Shown: one piece after another, positions 8,951 through 27,337 of the stretch
Layout: every line of letters begins with the position of its first letter
Position numbering within the stretch: the stretch's first letter is position 1
Assembly: GCA_006226555.1 (NCBI GenBank)
Contig: SBGS01000229.1
Span: forward strand, 1 to 33,813
DNA: 33,813 nt
Origin: Bacteroidota bacterium
GTDB lineage: Bacteria > Bacteroidota > Bacteroidia > Flavobacteriales_D > Crocinitomicaceae
Direction of reading: 5' to 3'
Notes under the pieces: model-generated
Databases searched by the model: none
The model's input: the letters and a program-made list of their open reading frames with translations, nothing else
What the model was told of the DNA's origin: nothing
Made by a program: the position numbers and the translations under genes

Positions 8951-9366
8951 ATATCAATGCTTATTGTTCTACTTCCATCCTGATTTACACGAATATACGA
9001 CCAAATCACGTTATCAGGAAGGAGTTCGGAAATTTTTTCAGGCCATTCGATAAAACACATACCGTCACCATAAAGCATTTCCTCAATTCCAATATCGTAT
9101 GCTTCCTCTTCGCTTTCTATTCTATACAGATCAAAATGATAGATCTTACCGTACATCGGGCTTTCATAGCTGTTAACCAGTGAATAAGTTGGAGAACCAT
9201 CGGGGTCTTCAATGCCCATGCAATTCAATAGCGCCTGAATAAAAGTGGTTTTGCCACTACCCATCTCTGCCTGAAAAGCAAATAATTTCCAATGTCCTAC
9301 CTTTTCAAGAAACTCTTTCGCAGCTTCATGAATATCATCAAGTTGTTGAATCTGAATCGTTATCAT
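8947..9366 (-). CDS. tsaE: tRNA threonylcarbamoyladenosine biosynthesis ATPase TsaE
   Basis: Walker A EMGSGKTTFIQALL, SPTYSLVNSYE, IYHFDLYRIESEEEAYDIGIEE, FIEWPEKISELLP. Confidence 0.95.
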   Translation of the reverse strand: MITIQIQQLDDIHEAAKEFLEKVGHWKLFAFQAEMGSGKTTFIQALLNCMGIEDPDGSPTYSLVNSYESPMYGKIYHFDLYRIESEEEAYDIGIEEMLYGDGMCFIEWPEKISELLPDNVIWSYIRVNQDGSRTISIDI

Positions 9367-10907
9367 CTCGGATCTAGCTCAACATAAGGAATCAGCAGCT
9401 CTTCAAGTGAAATCCCGCCATGCTGAAAGGTATTACTGTAATAATTGACGAAGTGATTGTAATTGTTTGGATAAACAAAGAAATCAGCTGCACTCACAAA
9501 AACGAATTCAGAAGACAACCTGGTTTTCGGCAGTTTGGCATCCTCCGGGTTTGATACCCTGAAAACTTCTTTTTCGTTGTACGAAAGATTATGTCCAACC
9601 TTGTACCTCAGGTTTGAATTCGTTGATCTTTCTCCAATGATCTTTACGGGATTTGTAACGCGGATCGTGCCGTGATCAGTGGTAATCACCAATTTTCTAC
9701 CTGATTCTGCTACCTTTTTTATGATTTCGAACAAAGGCGAATGATCGAACCATGAACGCGTAATTGATCTGTATGCTGATTCGTTTTCTGCCAATTCACG
9801 GATGACCTCCATCTCAGTTCTCGCATGAGAGAGCATGTCCACGAAATTGTACACGATCACGTTCAATTTATTCGACAATAACTGATTGAAATTGTCCGAC
9901 AACTTCTTCCCTGCATCTATGTTTGTGATCTTGTGATAAGACCATTTTATATCGTGACCAAGTCTTTTTAATTGTGCTTCGAGCAATTCCTTTTCAAATT
10001 GATTCTTACCTCCTTCATCCTCTTCGTTTCTCCAAAGATTTGGATGTTTTTTTGCTATATCAGAAGGCATCAATCCTGCAAAAAAAGCATTGCGGGCATA
10101 ATGTGTCGCTGTTGGAAGAATAGAATAAACTACCTCCTCGTTTTTGATCTGGAAAAGTTTACTCAGCATTGGGTTTAATACCTTCCATTGATCATACCTC
10201 AAATTGTCTATTACGATCACAAAAGGATCATGCTCCTTAAGCAATGGACTGATTCGATTTTTAAAAAGTGTATGAATCATTTGAGGGGCCTCTACTTTGC
10301 CATTTACCCAATCCAAATACGCATCCTCAACAAATTTGCTAAACTGAATATTCGCCTCCTTCTTCTGCATTTCAAGAATTTCACGCATCCCGGAATCCTC
10401 AATTCGATCGAGCTCAATATCCCAATAGACAAGCTTCTCGTACACTTCTTTCCATTCATCCTCATCTAACCTTGAATTCAGCATCATTCCTAATTCACGA
10501 AACTCCTGCTGATATGCAGAATTGGTTTTGTTCGTGATCAATTTACTGTGATCAAGATTTTTCTTAATGCAAAGCAATATTTGATTAGGATTTACAGGTT
10601 TAATGAGGTAATCAGCGATATTACTTCCGATCGCTTCCTCCATGATATGCTCCTCCTCACTCTTCGTGATCATTACCACCGGAATGTGCGGCTTTCGCTT
10701 TTTAATGCGCGCCAAGGCTTCCAATCCTGAAATACCAGGCATATTTTCATCCAGAAAAATAATATCGTAATCGCGTTCTTCCACTCGCTCAACCGCCGCC
10801 GAACCATTATTTACCGGATCTACTGAATATCCTTTTCCTTCCAGAAACAGTATATGTGGTTTCAATAGATCAATTTCGTCATCTGCCCAAAGTATTTTCG
10901 CCTCCAT
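9363..10907 (-). CDS. porX: PorX: response regulator receiver + PglZ domain (T9SS regulator)
   Basis: Receiver ILWADDEIDLLKPHILFLE...YDIIFLDENMPGISG...VVMITKSEEE...DYLIKPVNP; PglZ region VIVIDNLRYDQWKVL, ILPTATHYARNAFFAGLMPSDI, LVITTDHGTIRV. Start assigned to ATG at 10907 (MEAKILWADDE) rather than the ORF-track 10955. Confidence 0.93.
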   Translation of the reverse strand: MEAKILWADDEIDLLKPHILFLEGKGYSVDPVNNGSAAVERVEERDYDIIFLDENMPGISGLEALARIKKRKPHIPVVMITKSEEEHIMEEAIGSNIADYLIKPVNPNQILLCIKKNLDHSKLITNKTNSAYQQEFRELGMMLNSRLDEDEWKEVYEKLVYWDIELDRIEDSGMREILEMQKKEANIQFSKFVEDAYLDWVNGKVEAPQMIHTLFKNRISPLLKEHDPFVIVIDNLRYDQWKVLNPMLSKLFQIKNEEVVYSILPTATHYARNAFFAGLMPSDIAKKHPNLWRNEEDEGGKNQFEKELLEAQLKRLGHDIKWSYHKITNIDAGKKLSDNFNQLLSNKLNVIVYNFVDMLSHARTEMEVIRELAENESAYRSITRSWFDHSPLFEIIKKVAESGRKLVITTDHGTIRVTNPVKIIGERSTNSNLRYKVGHNLSYNEKEVFRVSNPEDAKLPKTRLSSEFVFVSAADFFVYPNNYNHFVNYYSNTFQHGGISLEELLIPYVELDPR

Positions 10908-10921
10908 CTTGGTATAATTCT

Positions 10922-10929
10922 TAGTTTTG
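10922..10929 (+). promoter_or_regulatory. Putative -7 box TAGTTTTG for the HD gene
   Basis: TAnnTTTG match in the 42-nt porX/HD divergent gap, 20 nt before the TTG start. Confidence 0.45.
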
Positions 10930-10949
10930 TAGCGGAAAAACCGCGTCCC

Positions 10950-12230
10950 TTGCAATCAAAGGTAAAGATTAACAATAAAAAGAAGATATTTAACGATCCG
11001 GTATACGGATTTATTTCAATTCCCAAGGAAGTAATCTTTGATGTAATTGAACATCCATATTTTCAGCGTCTAAGAAGGATCAAGCAATTAGGTTTAACCC
11101 ACAATGTTTACCCGGGAGCCTTGCATACACGTTTTCATCATGTTCTGGGTGCAATGCATCTCATGACGAAAGCGGTACAAACCATCAGACGCAAAGGTCA
11201 TGAAATAACCGACAAGGAAGAAGAAGCCGTTTTATTGGCCATCCTTCTTCACGACATTGGTCATGGACCGTTCTCACACGCGTTGGAATATGATATAGTT
11301 TCCGGTGTATCCCATGAAGAGATTTCCCGCTTCTTCATTGAACGTTTAAGCGAAGAATTAGAAGGTGAACTTGATCTCGCACTGGAGGTTTTCAAAGGAA
11401 CCTATCCGAAGAAATTCTTGCATCAGCTGGTTTCGAGCCAATTGGATATGGATAGAATGGACTATCTGAACAGAGACAGCTTCTACACTGGTGTAAGCGA
11501 AGGGGTGATCGGTAGCGACCGCATTATTGAAATGTTAAATGTGGTCGATGGAAATTTGGTACTTGAAGAAAAAGGGATCTACTCCATTGAAAAGTTCATT
11601 GTCGCCAGACGTTTGATGTATTGGCAGGTGTACCTGCATAAAACTGTAGTTGCTACGGAATACATGTTGATCCATGTTTTGAGAAGAGCAAAAGAGCTTT
11701 CCACTAACGGACATGATCTTTTTGCTAGCCCTGCTCTGAACTTTTTCCTTAAAAACAACATCACCAAGGAAGACTTTATTTCCAACAAAAACGTACTTGA
11801 GCAGTTTGCAAGACTTGATGACTATGATATTCTTGGAGCCGTGAAAGTATGGATGGATTATCCAGACAGAGTGTTGAGCGAGCTGTCGAAAAGAATCATC
11901 AACAGAGATCTCTTTAAGATCAAGATTTCTAAAGAGCCTTTTGATCTAAAAGATGTTGAGGCAATCCGTGTTCGCGTAATGCAAGACTTCGATCTTTCGG
12001 AAAATGAAGTGAAATACTTTGTGTACTCAGATAAACTTTCAAATTCTGCCTACACCGAGCATAAGGAAAACATCAATCTCATGATGAAAGATGGCAGCAC
12101 TGTTGATGTGAGTAAAGCATCTGATAATCTGAATATCTCTGCACTATCGAATCCGGTGGAAAAGTACTTTGTGTGTTACCCCGTTACACGCTCCAAAAAA
12201 GCTAAACAGCTAACATTCAAGCACCAGTAG
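10950..12230 (+). CDS. HD-superfamily phosphohydrolase (dGTPase-like)
   Basis: RLRRIKQLGLTHNVYPGALHTRFHHVLGAMHL, ILLHDIGHGPFSHALE, SSQLDMDRMDYLNRDSFYTGV. Initiates at TTG; no upstream in-frame ATG. Confidence 0.9.
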   Translation: MQSKVKINNKKKIFNDPVYGFISIPKEVIFDVIEHPYFQRLRRIKQLGLTHNVYPGALHTRFHHVLGAMHLMTKAVQTIRRKGHEITDKEEEAVLLAILLHDIGHGPFSHALEYDIVSGVSHEEISRFFIERLSEELEGELDLALEVFKGTYPKKFLHQLVSSQLDMDRMDYLNRDSFYTGVSEGVIGSDRIIEMLNVVDGNLVLEEKGIYSIEKFIVARRLMYWQVYLHKTVVATEYMLIHVLRRAKELSTNGHDLFASPALNFFLKNNITKEDFISNKNVLEQFARLDDYDILGAVKVWMDYPDRVLSELSKRIINRDLFKIKISKEPFDLKDVEAIRVRVMQDFDLSENEVKYFVYSDKLSNSAYTEHKENINLMMKDGSTVDVSKASDNLNISALSNPVEKYFVCYPVTRSKKAKQLTFKHQ

Positions 12231-14512: not shown

Positions 14513-16477
14513 GTGAATATGAAGCGTTTGATTGTTGTTTTATCCAGTTTATTTATCACTATAGGTGTATTTGCTCAGCAAGACGCGGTGATCATGACAA
14601 TTGACGGGAAACCGGTTACAAAGTCAGAATTTTTACAGATCTATCTGAAAAATAATCCTGATCCAAAATTTGATAAAGCTTCGCTCGATGAGTATGTTGA
14701 ACTCTTCAAGAAATTTAAGTTAAAAGTTATTGAGGCCGAAGCATTAGGTTACGATACCATTCCAAAGCTTGCACGTGAATTGAACGGCTACAAGAAACAA
14801 CTTGCAATGCCTTACTTGCAAGATTCTACAAAAAACGAAGAGCTTGTACGAGAAGCTTACGATCGTCTGCAAAATGAGGTAAGAGCATCTCACATTTTGA
14901 TCAAAGCTGATGAGAAAACAAGTCCGGAGGATACGCTAAAGATCTACAATCGACTTCTCGCCATGAAAAAGAGAATCGAGAACGGAGAAGATTTTGCTTC
15001 AATTGCTATGGCACCAAATGGTTCTGAAGATCCATCTGTTAGTTCGAATGGTGGCGACCTTGGTTATTTCACAGCATTCCAAATGGTTTATCCTTTTGAA
15101 GACGCTGCGTTTAAGACTGAGATCGGAAAGGTCTCTATGCCGTTCAGAACAAGATTTGGTTACCACATATTAATGGTTAGCGACAAACGTCCGGCAAGAG
15201 GAACAATGGAAGCTGCCCATATCATGGTACGAGTAACAAAGGAAAGTACTGAGCAAGAGGTTAATGCAGCAAGAGACAAAGCCAATGAGATCTATGACCT
15301 GATCGAAAAAGGAGAAAAATTTGAAGATCTGGTTAAAAAGTACTCCGATGATGGCTCTACTCTTTCCAAAGGTGGTATACTTCCTCAGTTTGGAACTGGA
15401 GCTGCAACTCGAATGGTACCTGAGTTTGAAGATGCAGCCTTTGAATTAAAAAATGACGGAGATGTTTCGAAACCGATAAGAACTGATTTCGGTTTTCATA
15501 TCATCAAGCGTATTAGTTGGAAACCAGTTCCTTCTTTCGAGGAAATGGAAAAGGAAATCAGGACGAGAGTATCGCGTGATTCCAGATCTCAGATCACTCA
15601 GGCATCTTTTGTAGAGAAGCTTAAGAAAGAATATGGTTTCAAGAAGAAAAATGACAAACCTGTTCTGTGGTTTGAGAATGTATTGGACTCTACGTACTAC
15701 CTTGGCCTATTCAAGGCAGCAAGTGTTTCAGCATCCAAGCCTATCTTCACGTTAAACGGGAAGAAATACACTCAGCAAGACTTTGCTATTTATCTTGAGC
15801 AGAACTACAGATCTGCTAACAAAGGAGGAGACATGAAGCAAATGTTACTTGACCAATATGCAAAGTGGGAGAAAAGGGCGATCATTGATTACGAATCTGA
15901 TCGACTTCCGGAAAAATATCCTGCATATAAGGCATTACTGAAGGAGTATCATGATGGAATTCTGCTTTACGAGGTCATGTCTGACCTTGTTTGGAACAAA
16001 GCAATGAGAGACACGAGCGGGTTAAAAGCATATTACGAGGAAAATAAATCAAATTACATGTGGAATTTGAGATATGAAGCCGATGTAATGGAGTGCAAAG
16101 ATCAGAAGATCGCCGAGCAAGTGTATCAGATGATGCAAAATGACACGGTACAGGTAAATGCTGTTGTGAAAGAAGTTAACAAAGACAGTGAGCTTAATGT
16201 TCGGTTGAGAAATGGAAAACTGGATGTTGAAAAGACTGCTTATCTTAAAGATCAAAAACTTGTAAACGGACTAAACAAACCTTACGAATTTGAAGGCAAA
16301 TACTACGTTGTTCGTTTGAAAGAAGTGATCCAACCAACTCAAAAAGAGTTCTACGAAGCTAAAGGTGCTGTTACAAGTGATTATCAAAATAAATTGGAGA
16401 AAGACTGGCTGGCTGAATTGGAAGCTAAATATCCAATCGTTGTAAATGAAGCAGCATTATACAGTTTAGGTGAGTAA
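14513..16477 (+). CDS. Periplasmic PpiC/parvulin-type peptidylprolyl isomerase with two rotamase repeats
   Basis: Signal peptide; RASHILIKADEK...GGDLGYFTAFQMVYPFEDAAF...FGYHILMV and AAHIMVRV...GGILPQFGTG..MVPEFEDAAFEL...FGFHIIKR. Confidence 0.9.
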   Translation: MNMKRLIVVLSSLFITIGVFAQQDAVIMTIDGKPVTKSEFLQIYLKNNPDPKFDKASLDEYVELFKKFKLKVIEAEALGYDTIPKLARELNGYKKQLAMPYLQDSTKNEELVREAYDRLQNEVRASHILIKADEKTSPEDTLKIYNRLLAMKKRIENGEDFASIAMAPNGSEDPSVSSNGGDLGYFTAFQMVYPFEDAAFKTEIGKVSMPFRTRFGYHILMVSDKRPARGTMEAAHIMVRVTKESTEQEVNAARDKANEIYDLIEKGEKFEDLVKKYSDDGSTLSKGGILPQFGTGAATRMVPEFEDAAFELKNDGDVSKPIRTDFGFHIIKRISWKPVPSFEEMEKEIRTRVSRDSRSQITQASFVEKLKKEYGFKKKNDKPVLWFENVLDSTYYLGLFKAASVSASKPIFTLNGKKYTQQDFAIYLEQNYRSANKGGDMKQMLLDQYAKWEKRAIIDYESDRLPEKYPAYKALLKEYHDGILLYEVMSDLVWNKAMRDTSGLKAYYEENKSNYMWNLRYEADVMECKDQKIAEQVYQMMQNDTVQVNAVVKEVNKDSELNVRLRNGKLDVEKTAYLKDQKLVNGLNKPYEFEGKYYVVRLKEVIQPTQKEFYEAKGAVTSDYQNKLEKDWLAELEAKYPIVVNEAALYSLGE

Positions 16478-17336
16478 ATCCTATAAAAATATCAAATGGG
16501 CTGGCATCCTTGTCAGCCTTTTTTCTTTTACCTGTTTATTGCCATCCTGCGGTGATCAGGACAAGGTAGTTGCTTCTGTAGGAAACATGGAGCTTCTAGA
16601 ATCCGAGGTCCTTATTATGATGAAACATCTCGGACAAGACCCCAAGGATGAAAAACAATTCAATTCTTTTATCGAGCAGTGGACCGAAACTGCTTTATAC
16701 GAAATTGAGCTCAAAGAACGTTATCCGGAAAAGTATAAGGTAATCGATCAAAGGGCGAACTCATTTAGAGGTGATCTTGCACGTTTCGAGCTTGAAGAAC
16801 TATCACTTCTATCGAAAATAGATACTGTGATAACAAAAGAAGAGGTTCAGGCTTATTACGATGAACACAAAGAAGAATTCGTTTTAACAGATTATCTTGT
16901 ACGTGCGCTTTATTTGAAAATACCAGAGGGACAGGACTTCAAGAAAAAAAATATTCACATCAAATACCTGTTAAAAAACAATAAAGACCTGGAAGAAGTC
17001 AATTCTTATGCTAAACTTTATGCGGAGAATTTTTATTTCAATGATTCTTCCTGGATTTATTTTTCAGAACTAACGAAAGACATTCCGATGAAGCGATTCA
17101 ACAAGGATAATATTGTTTTGAACAGAACAAAAACGTACTTCAGTGAAGGCGAATACACCTACTTCCTGAATATCCTTGATTATCAATTAAAGGATGATGT
17201 CCCACCTATTGACTTTCTAGAGAATGAGATCAAAACGATTGTTCTCAACCAACGAATTCAGCAGGAAAAAGAAAAATTGAGCCCAATATTACTGAAAGAA
17301 CTAAAAGAAAAATATGCTGTACAGATCAATCATTAG
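16470..17336 (+). CDS. SurA/PpiC N-terminal-like chaperone lipoprotein lacking a recognisable rotamase core
   Basis: Lipobox-like LLPSC; VVASVGNMELLESEVLIMMKHLG matches SurA N-domain style; no SHIL...GG..G parvulin motifs. GTG start overlapping the upstream stop. Confidence 0.65.
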   Translation: MSKSYKNIKWAGILVSLFSFTCLLPSCGDQDKVVASVGNMELLESEVLIMMKHLGQDPKDEKQFNSFIEQWTETALYEIELKERYPEKYKVIDQRANSFRGDLARFELEELSLLSKIDTVITKEEVQAYYDEHKEEFVLTDYLVRALYLKIPEGQDFKKKNIHIKYLLKNNKDLEEVNSYAKLYAENFYFNDSSWIYFSELTKDIPMKRFNKDNIVLNRTKTYFSEGEYTYFLNILDYQLKDDVPPIDFLENEIKTIVLNQRIQQEKEKLSPILLKELKEKYAVQINH

Positions 17337-18672
17337 TATCTTCTTACTTCAAGCATTCGGTGCATTTGCACAACCCAAGACCGTTGATAAAATTGCCGCT
17401 CAAGTTGGTGAAAAGGTAATCCTGTTATCCGACATTCAGGGACAAAAATTACAAATGCTTCAAGCAAATATGAGCTTGACCCCAGATACGGATTGTCAGC
17501 TGTTAGAAGAATTGATGTATCAAAAACTTCTTTTGAATCAAGCTATTCTTGACAGTATTGAAGTTACAGACGAGCAGGTTAATGCAGAAATGGAAAACCG
17601 ATTGAGGATCATTGAAAATCAGATCGGAAGCCGTGAAAAAATGGAGCAATTCTATGGTAAAACGATCGGACAGATCAAAATAGAATTTGCCGATGCGATC
17701 CGTGATCAGTTACTTGCACAGGAAATGGAACGTGAGATCACAATGGGGCTCAGCGTAACACCGAGAGAAGTTGAAAATTTCTATAACTCTTTACCTAAGG
17801 ACAGTATCCCTTTCATCAATTCACAGCTGAGCTTCCAACAGATCGTATTCTATCCGGAAGTTACTCAGGAAGACAAAAAACGTGCATTTCAGACCTTGGA
17901 AGAGATAAGAAAAGACATCATTAACAATGGAAAGTCATTCAGCACGCAGGCGCGTATCCATTCAATGGATCCGGGAAGTGCTTCTACCGGTGGTAAAATT
18001 GAAGCTTCCCGTGGAATGATGGTTGCTCCTTTCGAGGCTGCTGCTTTCAGTCTGGAGGTCGGACAGATCAGTTCCGTATTTGAAACAGAATACGGTTATC
18101 ACATCCTAAAATTACTCGATCGAAAAGGAGACGAATACGTTTGTCAACACATCCTCATCATACCTGAATTCGCTCCTGACGCATTAGAAAAAGCTGCAAT
18201 GATGATGGATTCTTGCTACAATTTACTGATGACCGGAAAGATGACGTGGAACGATGCGGTGATGAAGTTTTCAAATGACGAAGAAACCAAACAAAACAGT
18301 GGTATAATCACCAATCCTATTACAGGTGAACAAACATGGGACATGGAAGACCTTAACCAGGTGGATCAACAGATCTACCTAATCACGGACCGCATGGAGC
18401 CGGGTGATATATCACAACCGGGACTTTACACGAATATCTTTAGTCGTAAGCAAGGTATTCGAATTGTTCGTTTGATGAACAGAACATCTCCTCATAAAGC
18501 CAATCTAAAGGATGATTACAACCTGATCAAAACAGCCGCTGAAAATCAAAAGAAACAAGAAAAAATATTAACCTGGACCAAACAGAAGATCTATTCGACT
18601 TATATTAGACTGGATGATAATTACCAAAATTGTAATTTTGTCAATCCTTGGAATAAAACTGAAAAGCGTTAA
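17314..18672 (+). CDS. SurA-like periplasmic peptidylprolyl isomerase
   Basis: Signal peptide; KIAAQVGEKVILLSDI N-domain; GGKIEASRGMMVAPFEAAAFSLEVGQISSVFETEYGYHILKLLDRKGDEYVCQHILI. Confidence 0.88.
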   Translation: MLYRSIISIFLLQAFGAFAQPKTVDKIAAQVGEKVILLSDIQGQKLQMLQANMSLTPDTDCQLLEELMYQKLLLNQAILDSIEVTDEQVNAEMENRLRIIENQIGSREKMEQFYGKTIGQIKIEFADAIRDQLLAQEMEREITMGLSVTPREVENFYNSLPKDSIPFINSQLSFQQIVFYPEVTQEDKKRAFQTLEEIRKDIINNGKSFSTQARIHSMDPGSASTGGKIEASRGMMVAPFEAAAFSLEVGQISSVFETEYGYHILKLLDRKGDEYVCQHILIIPEFAPDALEKAAMMMDSCYNLLMTGKMTWNDAVMKFSNDEETKQNSGIITNPITGEQTWDMEDLNQVDQQIYLITDRMEPGDISQPGLYTNIFSRKQGIRIVRLMNRTSPHKANLKDDYNLIKTAAENQKKQEKILTWTKQKIYSTYIRLDDNYQNCNFVNPWNKTEKR

Positions 18673-18677
18673 CATTT

Positions 18678-19631
18678 ATGTCAGATAAAGCAGCAGTTGA
18701 TCAGCTTGTAAAAGATTACGAGGCTCTCAAAACAGAAATTCACAAAGTAATCGTAGGTCAAGATGACGTGGTAGACCAGGTTTTGATCTCTATCTTTTCT
18801 CGTGGTCATGCTTTACTTGTTGGTGTTCCGGGATTAGCTAAAACGTTACTCGTAAATACCATTGCACAGTCATTAGGACTTACATTTAACAGGATTCAGT
18901 TCACTCCGGACCTCATGCCTTCTGACATTATTGGTTCAGAAATCCTTGATGAAACAAAGAATTTTAAGTTCGTAAAAGGGCCGTTGTTCTCGAATATTAT
19001 CCTTGCGGATGAGATCAACAGAACGCCTCCGAAGACGCAATCTGCACTTTTAGAGGCCATGCAAGAAAGAGCAGTTACTGCGGCAGGTAACAACTATCCA
19101 CTACCCTCACCATTTTTTGTATTGGCTACACAGAATCCGATTGAGCAAGAAGGTACTTATCCTCTTCCTGAAGCACAATTAGATCGATTCATGTTCAATA
19201 TCTGGGTGGACTACCCTACTTACGTTGAAGAACTTGCAATCGTAAGAGCCACTACAACTGACTTCAAGGCTGATCTTAAGCAGATTCTCGATGGACCTCA
19301 GATCATGAATTATCAGGATCTAATTCGAAGAATACCGGTAGCTGATAATGTGTTGGAGTATGCGGTAAAACTTGTCGGTAAAACGCGCATTAATAGTGAA
19401 TTTGCAACTTCATTGACCAAAGATTATATCTCTTGGGGAGCAGGACCACGAGCCTCTCAAAACCTTATCATAGGTGCAAAATGTCACGCTGCCCTAAATG
19501 GAAAATACTCTCCTGACATCGAAGATGTTAAGGCTGTCGCTCAACCAATTCTACGACATAGAATTGTAAGAAACTACAAAGCGGAGGCCGAAGGATTTAC
19601 AATGGAAAGGATCATTAACGAGTTGCTGTAG
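18678..19631 (+). CDS. MoxR-family AAA+ ATPase
   Basis: IVGQDDVVDQVLISIFSRGHALLVGVPGLAKTLLVNTIAQSL, FTPDLMPSDIIGSEIL, LADEINRTPPKTQSALLEAMQER, ATQNPIEQEGTYPLPEAQLDRFMF. Confidence 0.96.
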   Translation: MSDKAAVDQLVKDYEALKTEIHKVIVGQDDVVDQVLISIFSRGHALLVGVPGLAKTLLVNTIAQSLGLTFNRIQFTPDLMPSDIIGSEILDETKNFKFVKGPLFSNIILADEINRTPPKTQSALLEAMQERAVTAAGNNYPLPSPFFVLATQNPIEQEGTYPLPEAQLDRFMFNIWVDYPTYVEELAIVRATTTDFKADLKQILDGPQIMNYQDLIRRIPVADNVLEYAVKLVGKTRINSEFATSLTKDYISWGAGPRASQNLIIGAKCHAALNGKYSPDIEDVKAVAQPILRHRIVRNYKAEAEGFTMERIINELL

Positions 19632-19702: not shown

Positions 19703-19710
19703 TATTTTTG
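19703..19710 (+). promoter_or_regulatory. Putative -7 box TATTTTTG upstream of the T9SS cassette
   Basis: TAnnTTTG match; overlaps the TTG start of the ORF track at 19708, supporting ATG at 19735. Confidence 0.45.
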
Positions 19711-19734: not shown

Positions 19735-20058
19735 ATGAAAAACTTCTTTCTTATTGGTGGATTTATAATTTTATCCAATTTAACTTTTGGGCAGACTCAT
19801 TCTTATTCCTTCAAGGGCATAGTGACTCAGGAGCAAGCAGCAGAACTGATTGCAGAACTTGAACGACTTCCTGAAGTTTCTAATGTGAAATTAAAATACA
19901 AGGAAGAAAAGGCTGGTGGTGAACTACTATTTGACGTTTTAACACCTGCTTCAAAGACGGATATTGATCAATCCTTCTCCCCTGTTTCGATCAAAGAGAT
20001 TTTACTCCGAAGAAATTTGGAACCCCTGACATTTAAATCAAGAACGGAAAATCCTTGA
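19735..20058 (+). CDS. Small exported protein of unknown function (possible beta-alpha-beta/ferredoxin-like fold)
   Basis: Signal peptide MKNFFLIGGFIILSNLTFGQ then YSFKGIVTQEQAAELIAELERLPEVSNVKLKYKEEKAGGELLFDVL; ends 1 nt before the adhesin ATG. Confidence 0.65.
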   Translation: MKNFFLIGGFIILSNLTFGQTHSYSFKGIVTQEQAAELIAELERLPEVSNVKLKYKEEKAGGELLFDVLTPASKTDIDQSFSPVSIKEILLRRNLEPLTFKSRTENP

Positions 20059-20059
20059 G

Positions 20060-23000
20060 ATGAAAAATTTATTACTATCAGCGCTCTTAATCGTGAGTGC
20101 ACAAGCATTGGCACAATCTGATGGCTGTTCTTCGGCAACGCTTCTTAGCGTAACAGCAAACTGTTCCTCCCCTGTATCAGGTACAACTCTTGGTGCTACT
20201 CAAACTATTGCAGGTTGTTCAGGTAATGCCGATGATGATGTATGGTATCAATTCACTGCAACCAATACAGCACATCAGATCACAGTGATTCCAATTGCAG
20301 GTTTTGATCCGGTCGTTCAATTGTTCTCCGGAACATGCTCTTCTCTGACCTCACTGGTTTGTAAAGACAATGGAGGATCCGGTGTTACTGAAATCATCAA
20401 CTACAATGGTCTAACGCCCGGGAATACTTACACAGTAAGAATTTATCATTATGGTGCAGGATCAGGTACTGGAAATTTCACAATTTGCGTTACGAATCCA
20501 CCCCCGACACCGTCAAACGATGAATGTATCAGTGCTACACCATTAAATGTTAACGGCTCTTGTAGCTATACCAATGCTACCACTGATGGTGCTTCTCAAT
20601 CTTTAACCGGATGTTCAGGAACAGCAGATGACGATGTTTGGTTCAGTTTTGTAGCTACAAATTCTTTACAAAACATCCAGGTTAATCCAATTGACGCTAT
20701 CGACCTGGTATTTCAGGTATACTCTGGTTCATGTGGAGCTTTAAACAGCTTGATCTGCATTGATAACACGTTCACAGGAGATGTTGAGCAATCCGATATC
20801 GTTGGACTTGTTCCAGGTCAGACATATTACATTCGTGTTTACGATTACTATCAAGGTAACACAGGTGATTTTCAAATATGCATCACGGGAACGCCCACAC
20901 CTACACCAACCAATGATGATCCTTGTTCGGCGATAGAACTTCCTGCTGTTACAGCAACTTGTCAATTCTCACAATTCACAACTGTAGGTGCTTCAGCAAC
21001 CATGAGTGCTCCTACCCCATCAACTTGTGCTGGAGGTAGTGGTGCAGCGATAGGAGGTTTTTCTGCTTCCTCATCTGATGTTTGGTTTGCCATAACGGTA
21101 CCTGCCAGTGGTAATGTTGATGTTACAGCTCAACCGAATGGTGGCGCAGGATCGATCACAGATGGAGTTATGGCACTCTATAGTGGTACATGTTCCAGCT
21201 TGACTCAGATTGCCTGCTCGGATGATAATAATTATCCCGGATCAACAAATGATCTATTACCATTCTTATCCGTAAACGGACTCACTCCGGGATCAACTGT
21301 CTACCTTAGATACTGGGGATTTGGTAGTTCGACAGGGACATTTGGTATTTGTGTTTCGACGGCAACGAACGATGATTGTGCAAATGCCTTGTATATATGT
21401 GACATTAATGGTTACAGCGCTTCTACAAGTGCCTCTTACACACCTGATCGTCCGGACAATATGCGCGGAAACAACGAGGACATCAACGGAAATAACCTGG
21501 TTGATGGGTTTGACTCAGGAGGGATCTTCGGACAAGCAGGACCATGGGGAACCGGGTCGGCTGATTTTGATGTTGTGATCGATAATAACAGCTGGATCAA
21601 ATTCACTGCTTCAAATACAACTGCTACCTTGGATGTAGATGTTTATGACTGCTGGACAGGAAACGGAATACAAATGCAGATCTTTGAAGGAACGAACTGT
21701 ACAAACTTTATCCCGGTTTCAAATTTTGAAGAAAGTGCGATCGGATTTACAATTACAGCGATAAATCTGACTATTGGAAATGACTATTATCTCATGGTAG
21801 ATGGGTTTGCAGGTGATATTTGTAATTATACGATAACGGCGAATTCAGGTGTTCAGTTTCCTGACATCGCTGACGTAAATCCTATTTGCGAAGGAGGAAC
21901 GGTAACCTTGAATGCACCTCCGGGAGCAACTTCCTACGAGTGGCAGCATGATGGATCTGCAACTCCTAGTGTTACGGTTTCACCATCTACAACGCAAACA
22001 TATTACTGTGAAGTAACTGGTTTATGTGATTACAAGCAGATGCTGGATGTTGTTGTTACAGTAAACCCAAATCCAAATGTGAGTATTACAAATGGTGCTA
22101 CAACATCAATTTGTCAGGGAGCTAGTGCTACACTGACCGCTACCGGAGCAACAAATTACACATGGTCAACAGGTGGTTCAGGAGCATCGATCAATGTTTC
22201 TCCGACCACAAATACGCAATATACTGTAACAGGGATTGATGCGAATGGTTGTTCTAATAATGATGTGATCACGGTGCAAGTAAATTCTCTTCCAACGTTA
22301 GCGGCTAATCCGAATGCTACGGATGCTGATTGCGGTGGATCAAATGGAGCACTTATCGGTGCAACTGCATCAGGAAATGGACCTTTCAGCTATTCATGGT
22401 CAAATGGAACTTCAACTATCGGGTCAACCGCCAACCTTAACAATGTTCCTGCGGGAAATTATTATTTGACTGTAACCGATGCCAACACATGTAATGACCA
22501 ATTCGGACCGTTCAATATCTCAAACCCAGGAGCTCCTCCTGCGCCATCACTTACGATCGATGATAATGATCCTTGTCTTGGTGCATCAAGTGTTTTAACT
22601 GCATCCAGCGCTGCGAGCTCTCCGGTATATAATTGGACCGGTCCTAACGGATTCACTGCTACCGGCACTACTGTTAACTTAACAAATGTGACTTCCCTTG
22701 AAAGCGGTAATTACTGTGTTTCTGTTACATCCGCTGGTTGTACTGGTCCATCTTCCTGCCAGACGATCACAGTACTAAACGATCCTCTGATCGCAGTAAC
22801 AGCTGCCGGGAATGATTCTACAATATGTTTATTCAATGACATTAACCTAAGTGTTACCGGTGCTGATTCATACACCTGGACTGGTCCAAACAGTTATAGC
22901 GGCTCAGGTTCGACCATCAATATCCCTAATGCTCAACAAGCAAACAGTGGTTACTATGCTGTAACGGGAATTGATGCCAACGGCTGTTCTGCTACTGATT

Positions 23001-23800
23001 CCATTTTAATATCAGTACTGCAGCTTCCTGTTGTTGATCTCGCTGCAGATCATGCCAATAATATCTATTGTAATGGCTATATAGCCAATTTAACTGCCAG
23101 TGGAGCTATGTCATATACCTGGACAGGACCATCAGGATTCACTTCCTCCAATAGTTCCGTAACCTTGATCAATCTGGATGCCGGAGATCAAGGATACTAT
23201 TATGTTACAGGTACAGATTCAGAAGGATGTGCTAACTCAGATAGTATTTTCTTGACGATTATTACCAATGTTCCGGCGTTTGCTCCTTCTGACACAATGA
23301 TCTGTCCGGGAGAAACACTGATTCTTTATGGTTCAGGAGGTCAGACGTACAATTGGAATGGACCTGCGGGGTATTATTCTGAGCTTCAGAATCCAACTGT
23401 TACGACCGATGCTTCATTTGAAAACTCAGGAATTTACTACCTGACAGTTACCGATGCCAATGGATGCCTGGGATATGACTCTACACTTGTTGAAGTAACA
23501 AACAATGGAGACTGCCTATTTATTCCAAACCTTACAACTCCTGATAAGGATGGCCACAATGACCTATGGGTAATTGAAGGACTTGATAAATTTGAAAATG
23601 CCGAGGTCGAGATCTATAACAGATGGGGAAATATGGTTTATTATTCCTCTCCCTATAACAATGATTGGGATGGTACTGTAAATCAGCCGGGAGTAATAGA
23701 CGGTGAAGGAAAGGTTCCTGTTGGTACATACTTCTATATTATCAAGCTTAATGAAGGCGATAAACCACCATTTAAGGGATATGTTGAAGTCCAATACTAA
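20060..23800 (+). CDS. Large T9SS-secreted adhesin-like protein, type B sorting (gliding motility-associated C-terminal domain)
   Basis: Signal peptide; four N-terminal pre-peptidase-like repeats (ADDDVWYQF..., ADDDVWFSF..., SSDVWFAI..., NNSWIKFTA...), several Ig/PKD-like repeats (YTWTGPNGF/YTWTGPNSYSG/YTWTGPSGF), C-terminus FIPNLTTPDKDGHNDLWVIEGLDKFENAEVEIYNRWGNMVYYSSPYNNDWDG...VPVGTYFYIIKLNEG...FKGYVEV. Confidence 0.92.
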   Translation: MKNLLLSALLIVSAQALAQSDGCSSATLLSVTANCSSPVSGTTLGATQTIAGCSGNADDDVWYQFTATNTAHQITVIPIAGFDPVVQLFSGTCSSLTSLVCKDNGGSGVTEIINYNGLTPGNTYTVRIYHYGAGSGTGNFTICVTNPPPTPSNDECISATPLNVNGSCSYTNATTDGASQSLTGCSGTADDDVWFSFVATNSLQNIQVNPIDAIDLVFQVYSGSCGALNSLICIDNTFTGDVEQSDIVGLVPGQTYYIRVYDYYQGNTGDFQICITGTPTPTPTNDDPCSAIELPAVTATCQFSQFTTVGASATMSAPTPSTCAGGSGAAIGGFSASSSDVWFAITVPASGNVDVTAQPNGGAGSITDGVMALYSGTCSSLTQIACSDDNNYPGSTNDLLPFLSVNGLTPGSTVYLRYWGFGSSTGTFGICVSTATNDDCANALYICDINGYSASTSASYTPDRPDNMRGNNEDINGNNLVDGFDSGGIFGQAGPWGTGSADFDVVIDNNSWIKFTASNTTATLDVDVYDCWTGNGIQMQIFEGTNCTNFIPVSNFEESAIGFTITAINLTIGNDYYLMVDGFAGDICNYTITANSGVQFPDIADVNPICEGGTVTLNAPPGATSYEWQHDGSATPSVTVSPSTTQTYYCEVTGLCDYKQMLDVVVTVNPNPNVSITNGATTSICQGASATLTATGATNYTWSTGGSGASINVSPTTNTQYTVTGIDANGCSNNDVITVQVNSLPTLAANPNATDADCGGSNGALIGATASGNGPFSYSWSNGTSTIGSTANLNNVPAGNYYLTVTDANTCNDQFGPFNISNPGAPPAPSLTIDDNDPCLGASSVLTASSAASSPVYNWTGPNGFTATGTTVNLTNVTSLESGNYCVSVTSAGCTGPSSCQTITVLNDPLIAVTAAGNDSTICLFNDINLSVTGADSYTWTGPNSYSGSGSTINIPNAQQANSGYYAVTGIDANGCSATDSILISVLQLPVVDLAADHANNIYCNGYIANLTASGAMSYTWTGPSGFTSSNSSVTLINLDAGDQGYYYVTGTDSEGCANSDSIFLTIITNVPAFAPSDTMICPGETLILYGSGGQTYNWNGPAGYYSELQNPTVTTDASFENSGIYYLTVTDANGCLGYDSTLVEVTNNGDCLFIPNLTTPDKDGHNDLWVIEGLDKFENAEVEIYNRWGNMVYYSSPYNNDWDGTVNQPGVIDGEGKVPVGTYFYIIKLNEGDKPPFKGYVEVQY

Positions 23801-23807
23801 TGACAGC

Positions 23808-24719
23808 ATGAGAAAGATAATATTTATAACAGCATTATTTATTTCTGCCTTTGCTCAATCCCAACAGGATGAACAAATGAGCTTGTATATGCAGAATCAG
23901 TTGTACTACAACCCGGCATACGCAGGAAGTAGAAATGCTCTGAGCACCATTGCTATCGCAAGATTTCAATGGGTTCAATTTGACGGCGCCCCTACTACCC
24001 AATGGTTCAGTGTGCATGCGCCTTTTCTACAACAAACACTTGGTGCAGGCATACATGCCGTAAATGATCGCATTGGTAACAGAAGTAGAACCGCAATATT
24101 TGGAGATCTTAGTGCTAGTATTCAGCTGAATAAGCAAAACACCCGACTCGCAGCAGGATTATCCGGAGGAATCGATGTTATTGGATATGACTTCAGTTCA
24201 GTTAAGGTGAATGATCAAAATGATCCCTATTATGGTTCACTCTACAGTGTAACTAAACCAAACATGGGAGCAGGTCTCTATTGTTATTCTGATCGTTTCT
24301 TTGTGGGTCTATCCAGTCCACGTTTATTTGAAATGGAAGATGTTCTTTTAGATTCATTGATAGACAAATTAAATACAAGACACTTTTTCTTCTCATCTGG
24401 ATATGTTTTCGATTTGAATAGTGTATTTAAATTAAAGCCATCAGCATTACTGAAATATACTCCAAAGGCTCCATTAACAGTTGATTTTAACCTTAGTATG
24501 TTAATGTATGATCAAATCTGGGTGGGTCTACTTTACCGTTACAACGAAGCAATGGGAGCTAATGTAATTTACAACATAAAGCAAACGCTGAGTATCGGAT
24601 ACACCTATGATTTCCCAATCAATGGTTTACGCACTTATCAATATGGATCACATGAAGTATTCCTGAGATATGACTTTATGCCAAAGAAAACGAACTATAC
24701 TTCTCCTCGCTATTTCTGA
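23808..24719 (+). CDS. PorP/SprF family type IX secretion system membrane protein
   Basis: MRKIIFITALFISAFAQSQQDEQMSLYMQNQLYYNPAYAGSRNALSTIAIARFQWVQFDGAPTTQWFSVHAPF, canonical PorP/SprF N-terminus. Start moved to ATG 23808. Confidence 0.93.
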   Translation: MRKIIFITALFISAFAQSQQDEQMSLYMQNQLYYNPAYAGSRNALSTIAIARFQWVQFDGAPTTQWFSVHAPFLQQTLGAGIHAVNDRIGNRSRTAIFGDLSASIQLNKQNTRLAAGLSGGIDVIGYDFSSVKVNDQNDPYYGSLYSVTKPNMGAGLYCYSDRFFVGLSSPRLFEMEDVLLDSLIDKLNTRHFFFSSGYVFDLNSVFKLKPSALLKYTPKAPLTVDFNLSMLMYDQIWVGLLYRYNEAMGANVIYNIKQTLSIGYTYDFPINGLRTYQYGSHEVFLRYDFMPKKTNYTSPRYF

Positions 24720-24721
24720 TC

Positions 24722-26872
24722 ATGAACAAGTACTTAACACTTCTTTTAATATCATTTCATTTTTCCGGCTTCAGTCAATTGAAACAGAAATTGGCAGATC
24801 AGCATTTCGAGCGCATGGAATATGCGAAATGCGTTGAGATGTACGATGAGCTCGCGGCTAAATGTCTAAAGGGAAAATCAAATTTGAATTGGGAAAATGT
24901 CCGTCGAGCCGGAATTGCACATTTCAAGCTCTATGAAATGAATGATGCTATCAAATTCTTCACGGCTCTTCAATCCAAAAATCTTCTCACAGAATCGGAT
25001 CGGGAATATCTGATTAAGGCTTTGCGATACAATGAAAAGTATGGAGACGCTAATAATCTAATCCGAGAGAGTCACAACTTATTTCCTGAAAATCAATTCT
25101 TTTCGACATTGTATGACGATCGAGATAAGTTTAATGATCTAACAAAAGATTCTGCTCAGATCACTGTAAAAGAAACATCCATAAATTCCGGAGATGGTGA
25201 TTTCGGTGTTAGTTTTTATCAAAATTCGATCATATACTCTTCTAAATCTAAAAACGTTGGTTTTTTGAACGAACGTTATGGTTGGGATGATGATTATTTC
25301 CTTAACATGTTCGAGGCTCGGATCGTAAACGATTCCGTTCTTGGCGAACCGCAACTTCTTAGAGACAATTTCGTTTCAAGGGCACATGATGGTCCGGTCA
25401 GTTTTACACCTGACGAAAAAAGAATGGTCATCACTAAAAATGAGCTCGTAAAAGTTAAAGGTCAATCAGTAAGACGCCTAGGTCTGTACTTTTCTGAAAT
25501 TAATGAATCAGGCGAATGGGGACCACTATATCCGTTCAGTTTTAACCAACCAGAGTATGACTATGGTCATGGTCAGTTCGGAGATAATGGTAACACATTG
25601 TATTTTGTTTCAAATAGACCAGGTGGTTTTGGGGGAACAGATATTTATGTCTCTTATAAAATTGGCAGCAGCTGGAGTGAACCTAAGAATCTTGGAAATC
25701 TTGTAAACACCCCATTAAATGAGATGTTTCCTTGTATTGTAAATAATACCCTTTATTTTTCATCAGAAGGACATTTTGGTTTAGGCGGACTAGATGTTTT
25801 CAAAATTTCACTGAACACTTCAAAACCTCCGATGAATTTGGGATATCCCCTGAATACATCATTTGATGACTTCAATCTGATTCTGGATTCAACAGAAAAT
25901 ATAGGCTATTTTTCCTCGAACAGAGGTGATTTTATTGATCGGGTCTATTCCTATAAACGTAATCCAATACGAATAGATCTAAAAGGAAATCTTTATGAAC
26001 TCTATGCTGAAAAAGAGCCGGTAGAGAACCATTGGGTATATATCAAGAACATGGATCGGAATGAAATTGATTCTCTCTCCACAGGCTCAGCGGGTGAATT
26101 CGATTATACTCTTGACGCGAATAATGAATACCGGATCTTTACTACGAAAGAAGAGTACATCCTATTAAAAGAGGCCGCCGTATCTACAAACAACATCTTT
26201 AAAGACACAACAATTCATGTGGAGCTTTTACTCAAACCAACAACGATATTGGTTCATTTGAGAGTAATTGAAAAGAAAACACGCAACATTATACCTGAAG
26301 CGACAGTTACGATCACAGATTACAATAAGGGATGGGACACTACCTTGATCACAAATCAGGATGGTATAGTGTCGCTTACTGTCGACCGCAATGTTGTTTA
26401 TTGGGCTCACGGTGCTAAAAAAGGTTTCATAGATACAGATATATCCTTCAATACCAGCAATGAAGATGGACGTGTGATCGATCTCGAACTAGCATTACCT
26501 CCGATTAAAAAGGGAGAGAGATTTAAGCTTGAAAATATCTTCTATGACCTTAATAAATCGACGTTAAGACCGGAAAGTAAAAGTTCACTTGACAAACTAG
26601 CAGACTTTATCATTAAAAATGACTTAAAGATCGAGCTAAGTGCACATACTGATTCCAGAGGAAGTAATACATACAACCAGAAACTATCTCAAGCGAGAGC
26701 GCAGAGCTGTGTAGATTACCTGATCTCTAAAGGCGTTCGCAAGGATCGCATCACCGCTAAGGGATATGGAGAAACCATGCTTGTAAATAAATGTAAAGAT
26801 GGCGTACAATGTAGTGAAGAGGAACATCAGGAGAATAGACGTACAGAAGTTCGTATACTAGAAGTGAATTAA
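24722..26872 (+). CDS. PorE-like OmpA-family protein (TPR + PD40 propeller + carboxypeptidase-regulatory-like + OmpA_C)
   Basis: N-terminal TPR-like region; propeller FGDNGNTLYFVSNRPGGFGGTDIYVSYK; C-terminal IFYDLNKSTLRPESKSSLDKLADFI...LSAHTDSRGSNTYNQKLSQARAQSCVDYLISKGV..RITAKGYGE. Confidence 0.9.
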   Translation: MNKYLTLLLISFHFSGFSQLKQKLADQHFERMEYAKCVEMYDELAAKCLKGKSNLNWENVRRAGIAHFKLYEMNDAIKFFTALQSKNLLTESDREYLIKALRYNEKYGDANNLIRESHNLFPENQFFSTLYDDRDKFNDLTKDSAQITVKETSINSGDGDFGVSFYQNSIIYSSKSKNVGFLNERYGWDDDYFLNMFEARIVNDSVLGEPQLLRDNFVSRAHDGPVSFTPDEKRMVITKNELVKVKGQSVRRLGLYFSEINESGEWGPLYPFSFNQPEYDYGHGQFGDNGNTLYFVSNRPGGFGGTDIYVSYKIGSSWSEPKNLGNLVNTPLNEMFPCIVNNTLYFSSEGHFGLGGLDVFKISLNTSKPPMNLGYPLNTSFDDFNLILDSTENIGYFSSNRGDFIDRVYSYKRNPIRIDLKGNLYELYAEKEPVENHWVYIKNMDRNEIDSLSTGSAGEFDYTLDANNEYRIFTTKEEYILLKEAAVSTNNIFKDTTIHVELLLKPTTILVHLRVIEKKTRNIIPEATVTITDYNKGWDTTLITNQDGIVSLTVDRNVVYWAHGAKKGFIDTDISFNTSNEDGRVIDLELALPPIKKGERFKLENIFYDLNKSTLRPESKSSLDKLADFIIKNDLKIELSAHTDSRGSNTYNQKLSQARAQSCVDYLISKGVRKDRITAKGYGETMLVNKCKDGVQCSEEEHQENRRTEVRILEVN

Positions 26873-26873
26873 A

Positions 26874-27290
26874 ATGACGAAGTTTTTTCATTTACACGTT
26901 TTACTGCTTTCCGTATTCTCTTTTGGTCAGGAAAGTGATCTCATTGATGCACATCGAGAGGATTCTGAACTAAAGATCGTTATCAGAACGGAAGAACAAT
27001 TAGAAGACCGATATGTCGCAATGGACAACATGACCATCAAGATTTATGGTGATACAACCAAGGTCTATTACATTAATTACAGCGACGGAATGGTTGGGAG
27101 TATGATGATCCCCTATTCCGTATTTGATCGTTTTGTGAAATACGAAGCAGCTTTAAAAACATATGACTGCGCAACAGATCCTTGTAAAAATTCAGTATTG
27201 ATCGAAATTGGAGAAGAAGCAAAAAGATATCCGATAGATCTTTTCCATGTGGAAAGCCTATCATCACTTATGCTCGAACTCGAAAATTAA
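26874..27290 (+). CDS. Small exported protein of unknown function
   Basis: 138 aa with N-terminal signal-like MTKFFHLHVLLLSVFSFGQ; starts 1 nt after the OmpA-family stop. Confidence 0.65.
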   Translation: MTKFFHLHVLLLSVFSFGQESDLIDAHREDSELKIVIRTEEQLEDRYVAMDNMTIKIYGDTTKVYYINYSDGMVGSMMIPYSVFDRFVKYEAALKTYDCATDPCKNSVLIEIGEEAKRYPIDLFHVESLSSLMLELEN

Positions 27291-27302: not shown

Positions 27303-27337
27303 CCTAGTTAATTGAAGCCTCAATTAACACGTTTAGG
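27303..27337 (+). other. Bulged inverted repeat (putative RNA hairpin)
   Basis: CCTA-GTTAATTG (27303-27314), loop AAGCCT, CAATTAAC (27321-27328), 5-nt bulge ACGTT, TAGG (27334-27337). No T run follows. Confidence 0.5.

Follow-up and report, generated by a model that had tools for sequence, protein, structure and literature searches.

The question raised by this locus is what a small exported protein, encoded directly ahead of a large surface adhesin, contributes to a gene string that also holds a carrier and an anchor, and whether a second small exported protein at the far end of the string serves the same adhesin. The locus lies within the window, the whole stretch of 33,813 nucleotides analysed here, which is one entire contig of a draft genome of 2.24 Mb in 308 contigs (hereafter G000). 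An earlier note, made from the sequence alone, had described five genes on one strand; all five are present on the forward strand where it had placed them, and domain scans support the identity of the three large ones. The features are the following:

19703 to 19710, + strand: TATTTTTG, a possible promoter, between a MoxR gene and the 107-aa gene, fitting the Bacteroidetes -7 consensus TAnnTTTG
19735 to 20058, + strand: exported 107-aa HMA-like protein (predicted ferredoxin fold) lacking the cysteines of the metal site; invariant genetic partner of the adhesin
20060 to 23800, + strand: 1246-aa T9SS type-B adhesin (as predicted), with a signal peptide, three GBD_T9SS_assoc domains, Ig_7 repeats and a C-terminal CHU_C / TIGR04131 domain
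23808 to 24719, + strand: PorP/SprF carrier (TIGR03519), 303 aa counted from the ATG, with a C-terminal tail devoid of Cys-X-Cys
24722 to 26872, + strand: PorE-like outer-membrane/peptidoglycan anchor, 716 aa, with PD40, CarboxypepD_reg and OmpA
26874 to 27290, + strand: exported 138-aa protein, a genus-restricted passenger present in six genomes of one genus

From 5′ to 3′, the ORF coordinates give gaps of 1, 7, 2 and 1 nt at the four junctions; the tight spacing reported earlier stands, with the correction that the PorP start lies 7 nt past the adhesin stop. The order of the first four genes is common to many related genomes and that of the fifth is not; the string of genes one to four is beyond chance, and the 138-aa gene is excluded from that statement. 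Because TAnnTTTG shows no enrichment across the window (23 occurrences observed versus 30 expected), TATTTTTG is regarded as a candidate promoter only; scans for sigma-70 promoters and for terminators stayed at chance level. Just 3′ of the 138-aa gene, a perfect 8-bp inverted repeat (TTAATTGA-AGCC-TCAATTAA, 27307–27326), not followed by a T run, is a possible transcript end. Immediately 5′ of the cassette (14513–19631) lie three PPIase/SurA-like genes and a MoxR ATPase gene, in an order kept in several genomes of the same genus (L026 and L035, and in part L049, L053 and L057) and not conserved in other genera that have the small protein and the adhesin. A 530-aa response-regulator-like protein, which we take to resemble the T9SS regulator PorX, is encoded 9 kb upstream of the cassette (9363–10955).

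The 1246-aa protein scores 92.4 bits for CHU_C (cut-off 27) and 54.5 bits for TIGR04131 (cut-off 35), and is by this predicted C-terminal domain a T9SS type-B substrate; the Ig_7 stretches number six in the domain scan. The gene directly downstream of it matches TIGR03519 with 251.5 bits (cut-off 90.55), and its product ends in SPRYF, with no Cys-X-Cys within the last 45 residues. In SprF, a Cys-X-Cys motif in the C-terminal tail is disulfide-bonded to GldK, which allows gliding (PMC12635249). None of the related carriers examined that adjoin this adhesin family has the motif; because these carriers lack the gliding motif of SprF, the adhesin of this cassette is probably static. The product of the fourth gene scores 329.6 bits for the NCBIfam PorE family NF052230, below the cut-off of 600, and for this reason is called PorE-like only; its PD40, CarboxypepD_reg (below the Pfam cut-off) and OmpA stretches nevertheless reproduce the propeller/carboxypeptidase-regulatory/OmpA layout of PorE, so that the earlier assignment holds except for the TPR, which Pfam did not report in this protein. 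The translocon component SprA is encoded in G000, in two contig pieces; above the respective cut-offs, the genome also has 13 PorP/SprF matches and 21 C-terminal domains of type B. Operons that combine an adhesin with SprF and PorE are already on record (sections of PMC12618676 and PMC9143113), and this published work in F. johnsoniae and P. gingivalis, together with the conserved gene order, backs the view put forward earlier of a dedicated export-and-anchor module.

That view had included both small proteins, which were thought to bracket and serve the adhesin. The 138-aa gene, found in six genomes and once in G000, follows the PorE gene in G000 and G038, as bracketing would have it, and all six genomes have the cassette; in the other four (G064, G099, G128 and G133), however, the gene lies elsewhere in the genome, and it is missing from most cassettes. 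Thus, the neighbourhood search, which was the earlier note's own means of refutation, finds the gene beside an adhesin/SprF pair in just two of the six genomes, and the co-occurrence with the cassette is explained by genus-level relatedness. We regard a second adhesin partner at this position as highly improbable; the 138-aa protein is a local passenger outside the conserved cassette. It is confidently modelled with two helices and six strands; a search of the PDB with this model gave nothing significant, and the matches of its sequence profile were dismissed as antibody noise.

The 107-aa gene behaves differently. A protein search of 100 genomes of the same family recovered it in 15 genomes in addition to G000, and at all 16 places it lies directly upstream of a homologue of the adhesin. 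When 246 genomes of the order were searched with a profile, 30 of them gave matches, with the adhesin directly downstream at every convincing one; the sole exception, a partial match in G122 inside a 223-aa protein (E 8e-4), was put down to chance. With a broader profile (A6), 396 genomes of the class yielded 32 convincing matches in many families, and the adhesin is directly downstream at 30 of 30 loci examined and likewise at L297, the G814 match being left out on account of ORF calling. At phylum level the narrow profile A2 found no member outside the group, its weak matches being chance. With double counts removed, 60 of 60 examined places (16 in the family, more in the order, the 30 loci of the class-wide search, 28 of them not met before, and L297) lie directly 5′ of a homologue of the adhesin, which at one place is a decayed stub (see below). 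The neighbourhood searches thus tie the gene to one substrate family, and G000, with its 21 type-B domains, has a single copy of it.

A separate reverse scan, which took the adhesin as its starting point in named genomes, yielded 80 loci. Among adhesins with at least 48% N-terminal identity to that of the window, 60 of 62 have the small-protein gene immediately upstream; the two without it (L137 and L138) are both of an 870-aa type. More divergent small proteins, which match the family profile at 96.5% probability, stand upstream of adhesins at L104 to L109, L111 and L112. Among more distant adhesins, at most one of 18 has a similar-looking small protein (L201), and L188 is cut at a contig end. 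The second version of the adhesin, of about 870 aa (L102/L138, L103 and L137), is found with neither the small protein nor PorP nor PorE as a neighbour, and its copy in G064 (L103) is split across two reading frames; since these adhesins have no neighbouring small-protein gene, the small protein either acts in trans there or is dispensable. In G121 (L060), the small gene is shortened by a stop, the adhesin is reduced to a stub of 67 aa and neither PorP nor PorE is found before the next conserved gene; with both genes in this state, the small gene and the adhesin have decayed together.

What follows the pair is more variable. In most of the Crocinitomicaceae loci that extend far enough, PorP and PorE come next; other groups have a PorP-like gene there but no PorE (L144, L145, L149, L155 and L182), and at L160, L163, L168 and L171, among others, the pair is kept with no PorP adjoining. 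The persistence of the pair in these last cases indicates that it is the adhesin, and not the carrier or the anchor, that the small protein serves. Across the class Bacteroidia, the 107-aa gene keeps its place immediately 5′ of one particular type-B adhesin gene, whatever carrier and anchor genes follow. Divergence of the small protein and of the adhesin N-terminus is correlated (rho 0.69), a mirror-tree value confounded by shared ancestry; a windowed version of this comparison singled out no contact domain convincingly, and no fusion of the two genes was found. Divergence is faster in the small protein than at the N-terminus of the adhesin.

Other small exported proteins were seen upstream of other substrates. 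The gene of one, of 117 aa, precedes another adhesin pair, beside the enolase gene (L114:2325–2678 and L116:10929–11282); it matches the 107-aa family profile at 80–88% probability, to which the signal peptide contributes. In G000 itself, unrelated small exported proteins of 165 and 126 aa are encoded directly upstream of T9SS-type proteins on contigs C34 (L292:4843–5340) and C110 (L293:1792–2172), which hints that small partners encoded in this position could be more widespread.

The 107-aa protein has no significant match in Pfam or NCBIfam, PHROGs and plasmid searches with the small proteins returned no family, and a match to FtsX_ECD (E 0.022, below the cut-off) was rejected as fold-like noise. 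AlphaFold2, run with an alignment of 16 sequences, predicts a single beta-alpha-beta-beta-alpha-beta domain with a core pLDDT above 90, and the PDB matches of this model are ferredoxin-like folds of the S6 and HMA types; the ferredoxin-like fold is a firm prediction. The family profile reaches the HMA domains of copper ATPases in the PDB (best E 1.1e-4, others 0.1–1); the copper chaperone CsoZ is matched by three of 19 members (best E 4e-4), and Pfam HMA by one of the 19 only (E 0.01). The homology to HMA proteins is suggestive, not proven, and the protein probably belongs to the HMA superfamily. In other Bacteroidia, exported HMA-like proteins outside the 107-aa family keep a GITC/GVGC-type cysteine site and are encoded just 5′ of outer-membrane-receptor-like genes of 742–751 aa (L299, L301, L304 and L306); they are likely metal-handling cousins of the family. 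Proteins of this kind account for most of the weak matches of profile A6 (about 1e-7 to 1e-6), which were not accepted as family members.

These cousins and the HMA-like profile matches lend some colour to the idea that the 107-aa protein itself binds metal, delivering or sensing it for the adhesin as its exported relatives presumably do beside outer-membrane receptors. Against this, CxxC is found in none of 75 distinct family members, and the mature part of 35 of them has no cysteine at all. Without metal-site cysteines such a role is unlikely, and we hold it to be very unlikely indeed. Given the reach of the profile to copper-ATPase HMA domains and CsoZ, and the existence of exported cousins that keep the cysteines, the most fitting reading of the family is that of an exported HMA relative whose metal site has been lost.

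The 75 distinct pairs comprise only small genes that already have a long same-strand neighbour; being preselected in this way, the set was used for gap and residue statistics and not as a test of adjacency. The median gap between the small gene and the adhesin gene is 11 nt, and ten pairs overlap. Such short or overlapping junctions, with the small gene always first, would suit a gene placed there for expression only, through translational coupling or feedback, with no contact between its product and the adhesin. A leader gene, however, needs neither a conserved signal peptide nor a folded extracytoplasmic domain with near-invariant residues, both of which the family has, and we consider this explanation improbable. 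The residue at the predicted cleavage site is glutamine in 93 of 95 sequences, in keeping with the Q-rule of Bacteroidetes (PMC10653852).

The earlier note had called the 107-aa protein an adhesin-specific partner, perhaps a chaperone, plug or surface subunit; adjacency strongly supports its being an invariant genetic partner, and its biochemical role is what we infer here. We propose that the locus encodes one surface adhesin with a periplasmic chaperone or escort (the 107-aa protein), a cognate carrier and a peptidoglycan anchor, the 138-aa protein having no part in the mechanism, and we put this proposal at about an even chance. The small protein and the adhesin would both enter the periplasm by Sec, where the former would bind the latter and hold it export-competent; the cognate PorP/SprF carrier would then take the type-B C-terminal domain, with passage through the SprA translocon, and PorE would tie carrier and adhesin to the peptidoglycan, giving a static surface structure. 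The faster divergence of the small protein counts against its being such an escort, since a tightly fitting partner need not diverge so; the failure to find a gene fusion and the 870-aa adhesins with no small protein beside them weigh on the same side.

The main rival makes the small protein a structural subunit of the adhesin, which would bind the folded adhesin in the periplasm and leave with it through the wide SprA pore, capping, for example, its N-terminal domains. The T9SS passes folded substrates, the adjacency data fit a subunit equally, the small protein tracks the adhesin rather than the carrier, and it evolves fast, as exposed proteins do. Nevertheless, no small protein of the 75 distinct pairs has a T9SS C-terminal signal motif, and we know of no established case of signal-less piggy-back export through the T9SS. 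Moreover, the fast divergence, together with the adhesin copies that have no small-protein neighbour, argues against a strictly obligatory structural role and suggests action in trans or tolerated loss. On balance, a co-exported subunit seems to us rather unlikely. Returning to the chaperone or escort, we offer as a tentative possibility, more doubtful than the proposal for the locus itself, that the 107-aa family represents substrate-specific chaperones or escorts that serve the T9SS in the periplasm, a class of which it would be the first known. In this reading the family would derive from an exported copper-chaperone (HMA) domain minus its metal site, and would be one among several small, mutually unrelated exported proteins whose genes precede those of type-B substrates.

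Work on type-B adhesins, their SprF carriers and their PorE anchors is active, and the core adhesin–SprF–PorE cassette is known; what is new is the small HMA-like protein that invariably accompanies the adhesin. No description of the 107-aa family, or of a substrate-specific periplasmic T9SS partner, was found in the open-licence literature searched, and an earlier account elsewhere is possible. Being small and, throughout Bacteroidia, all but invariably linked to a single adhesin family, the gene offers a direct test for dedicated T9SS chaperones or co-exported subunits.

The closest known arrangement is that of F. johnsoniae Fjoh_3952-3951-3950 and like operons, in which a type-B adhesin is followed, as here, by a PorP/SprF carrier and a PorE-like anchor, and for which a static cell-wall-anchored complex was proposed; unlike here, the sections of these reports to which we refer make no mention of an exported small protein of HMA type encoded ahead of the adhesin (PMC12618676, PMC9143113). 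The SprB–SprF gliding system resembles the cassette in that an adjacent SprF exports and holds a type-B adhesin, but SprF has the Cys-X-Cys tail that bonds GldK and no PorE neighbour (PMC12635249), whereas the window's carrier has a PorE-like neighbour and, lacking the motif, does not qualify as the SprF of a gliding apparatus. SkpA, in the extended T9SS translocon, is likewise a small periplasmic protein that serves the export of substrates, including a type-B one; as a Skp homologue it is, however, built into the translocon, is not tied to one substrate and has a different fold from the 107-aa protein (PMC10994853). Finally, the HMA proteins (CsoZ and the N-terminal domains of copper ATPases) have in common with the 107-aa protein the ferredoxin-like fold, as predicted for the latter, and a detectable profile similarity, but the 107-aa protein differs from them in that it lacks the metal-binding CxxC, is exported and is genetically tied to an adhesin, which suggests that a metal-chaperone fold has been reused for a partnership between proteins.
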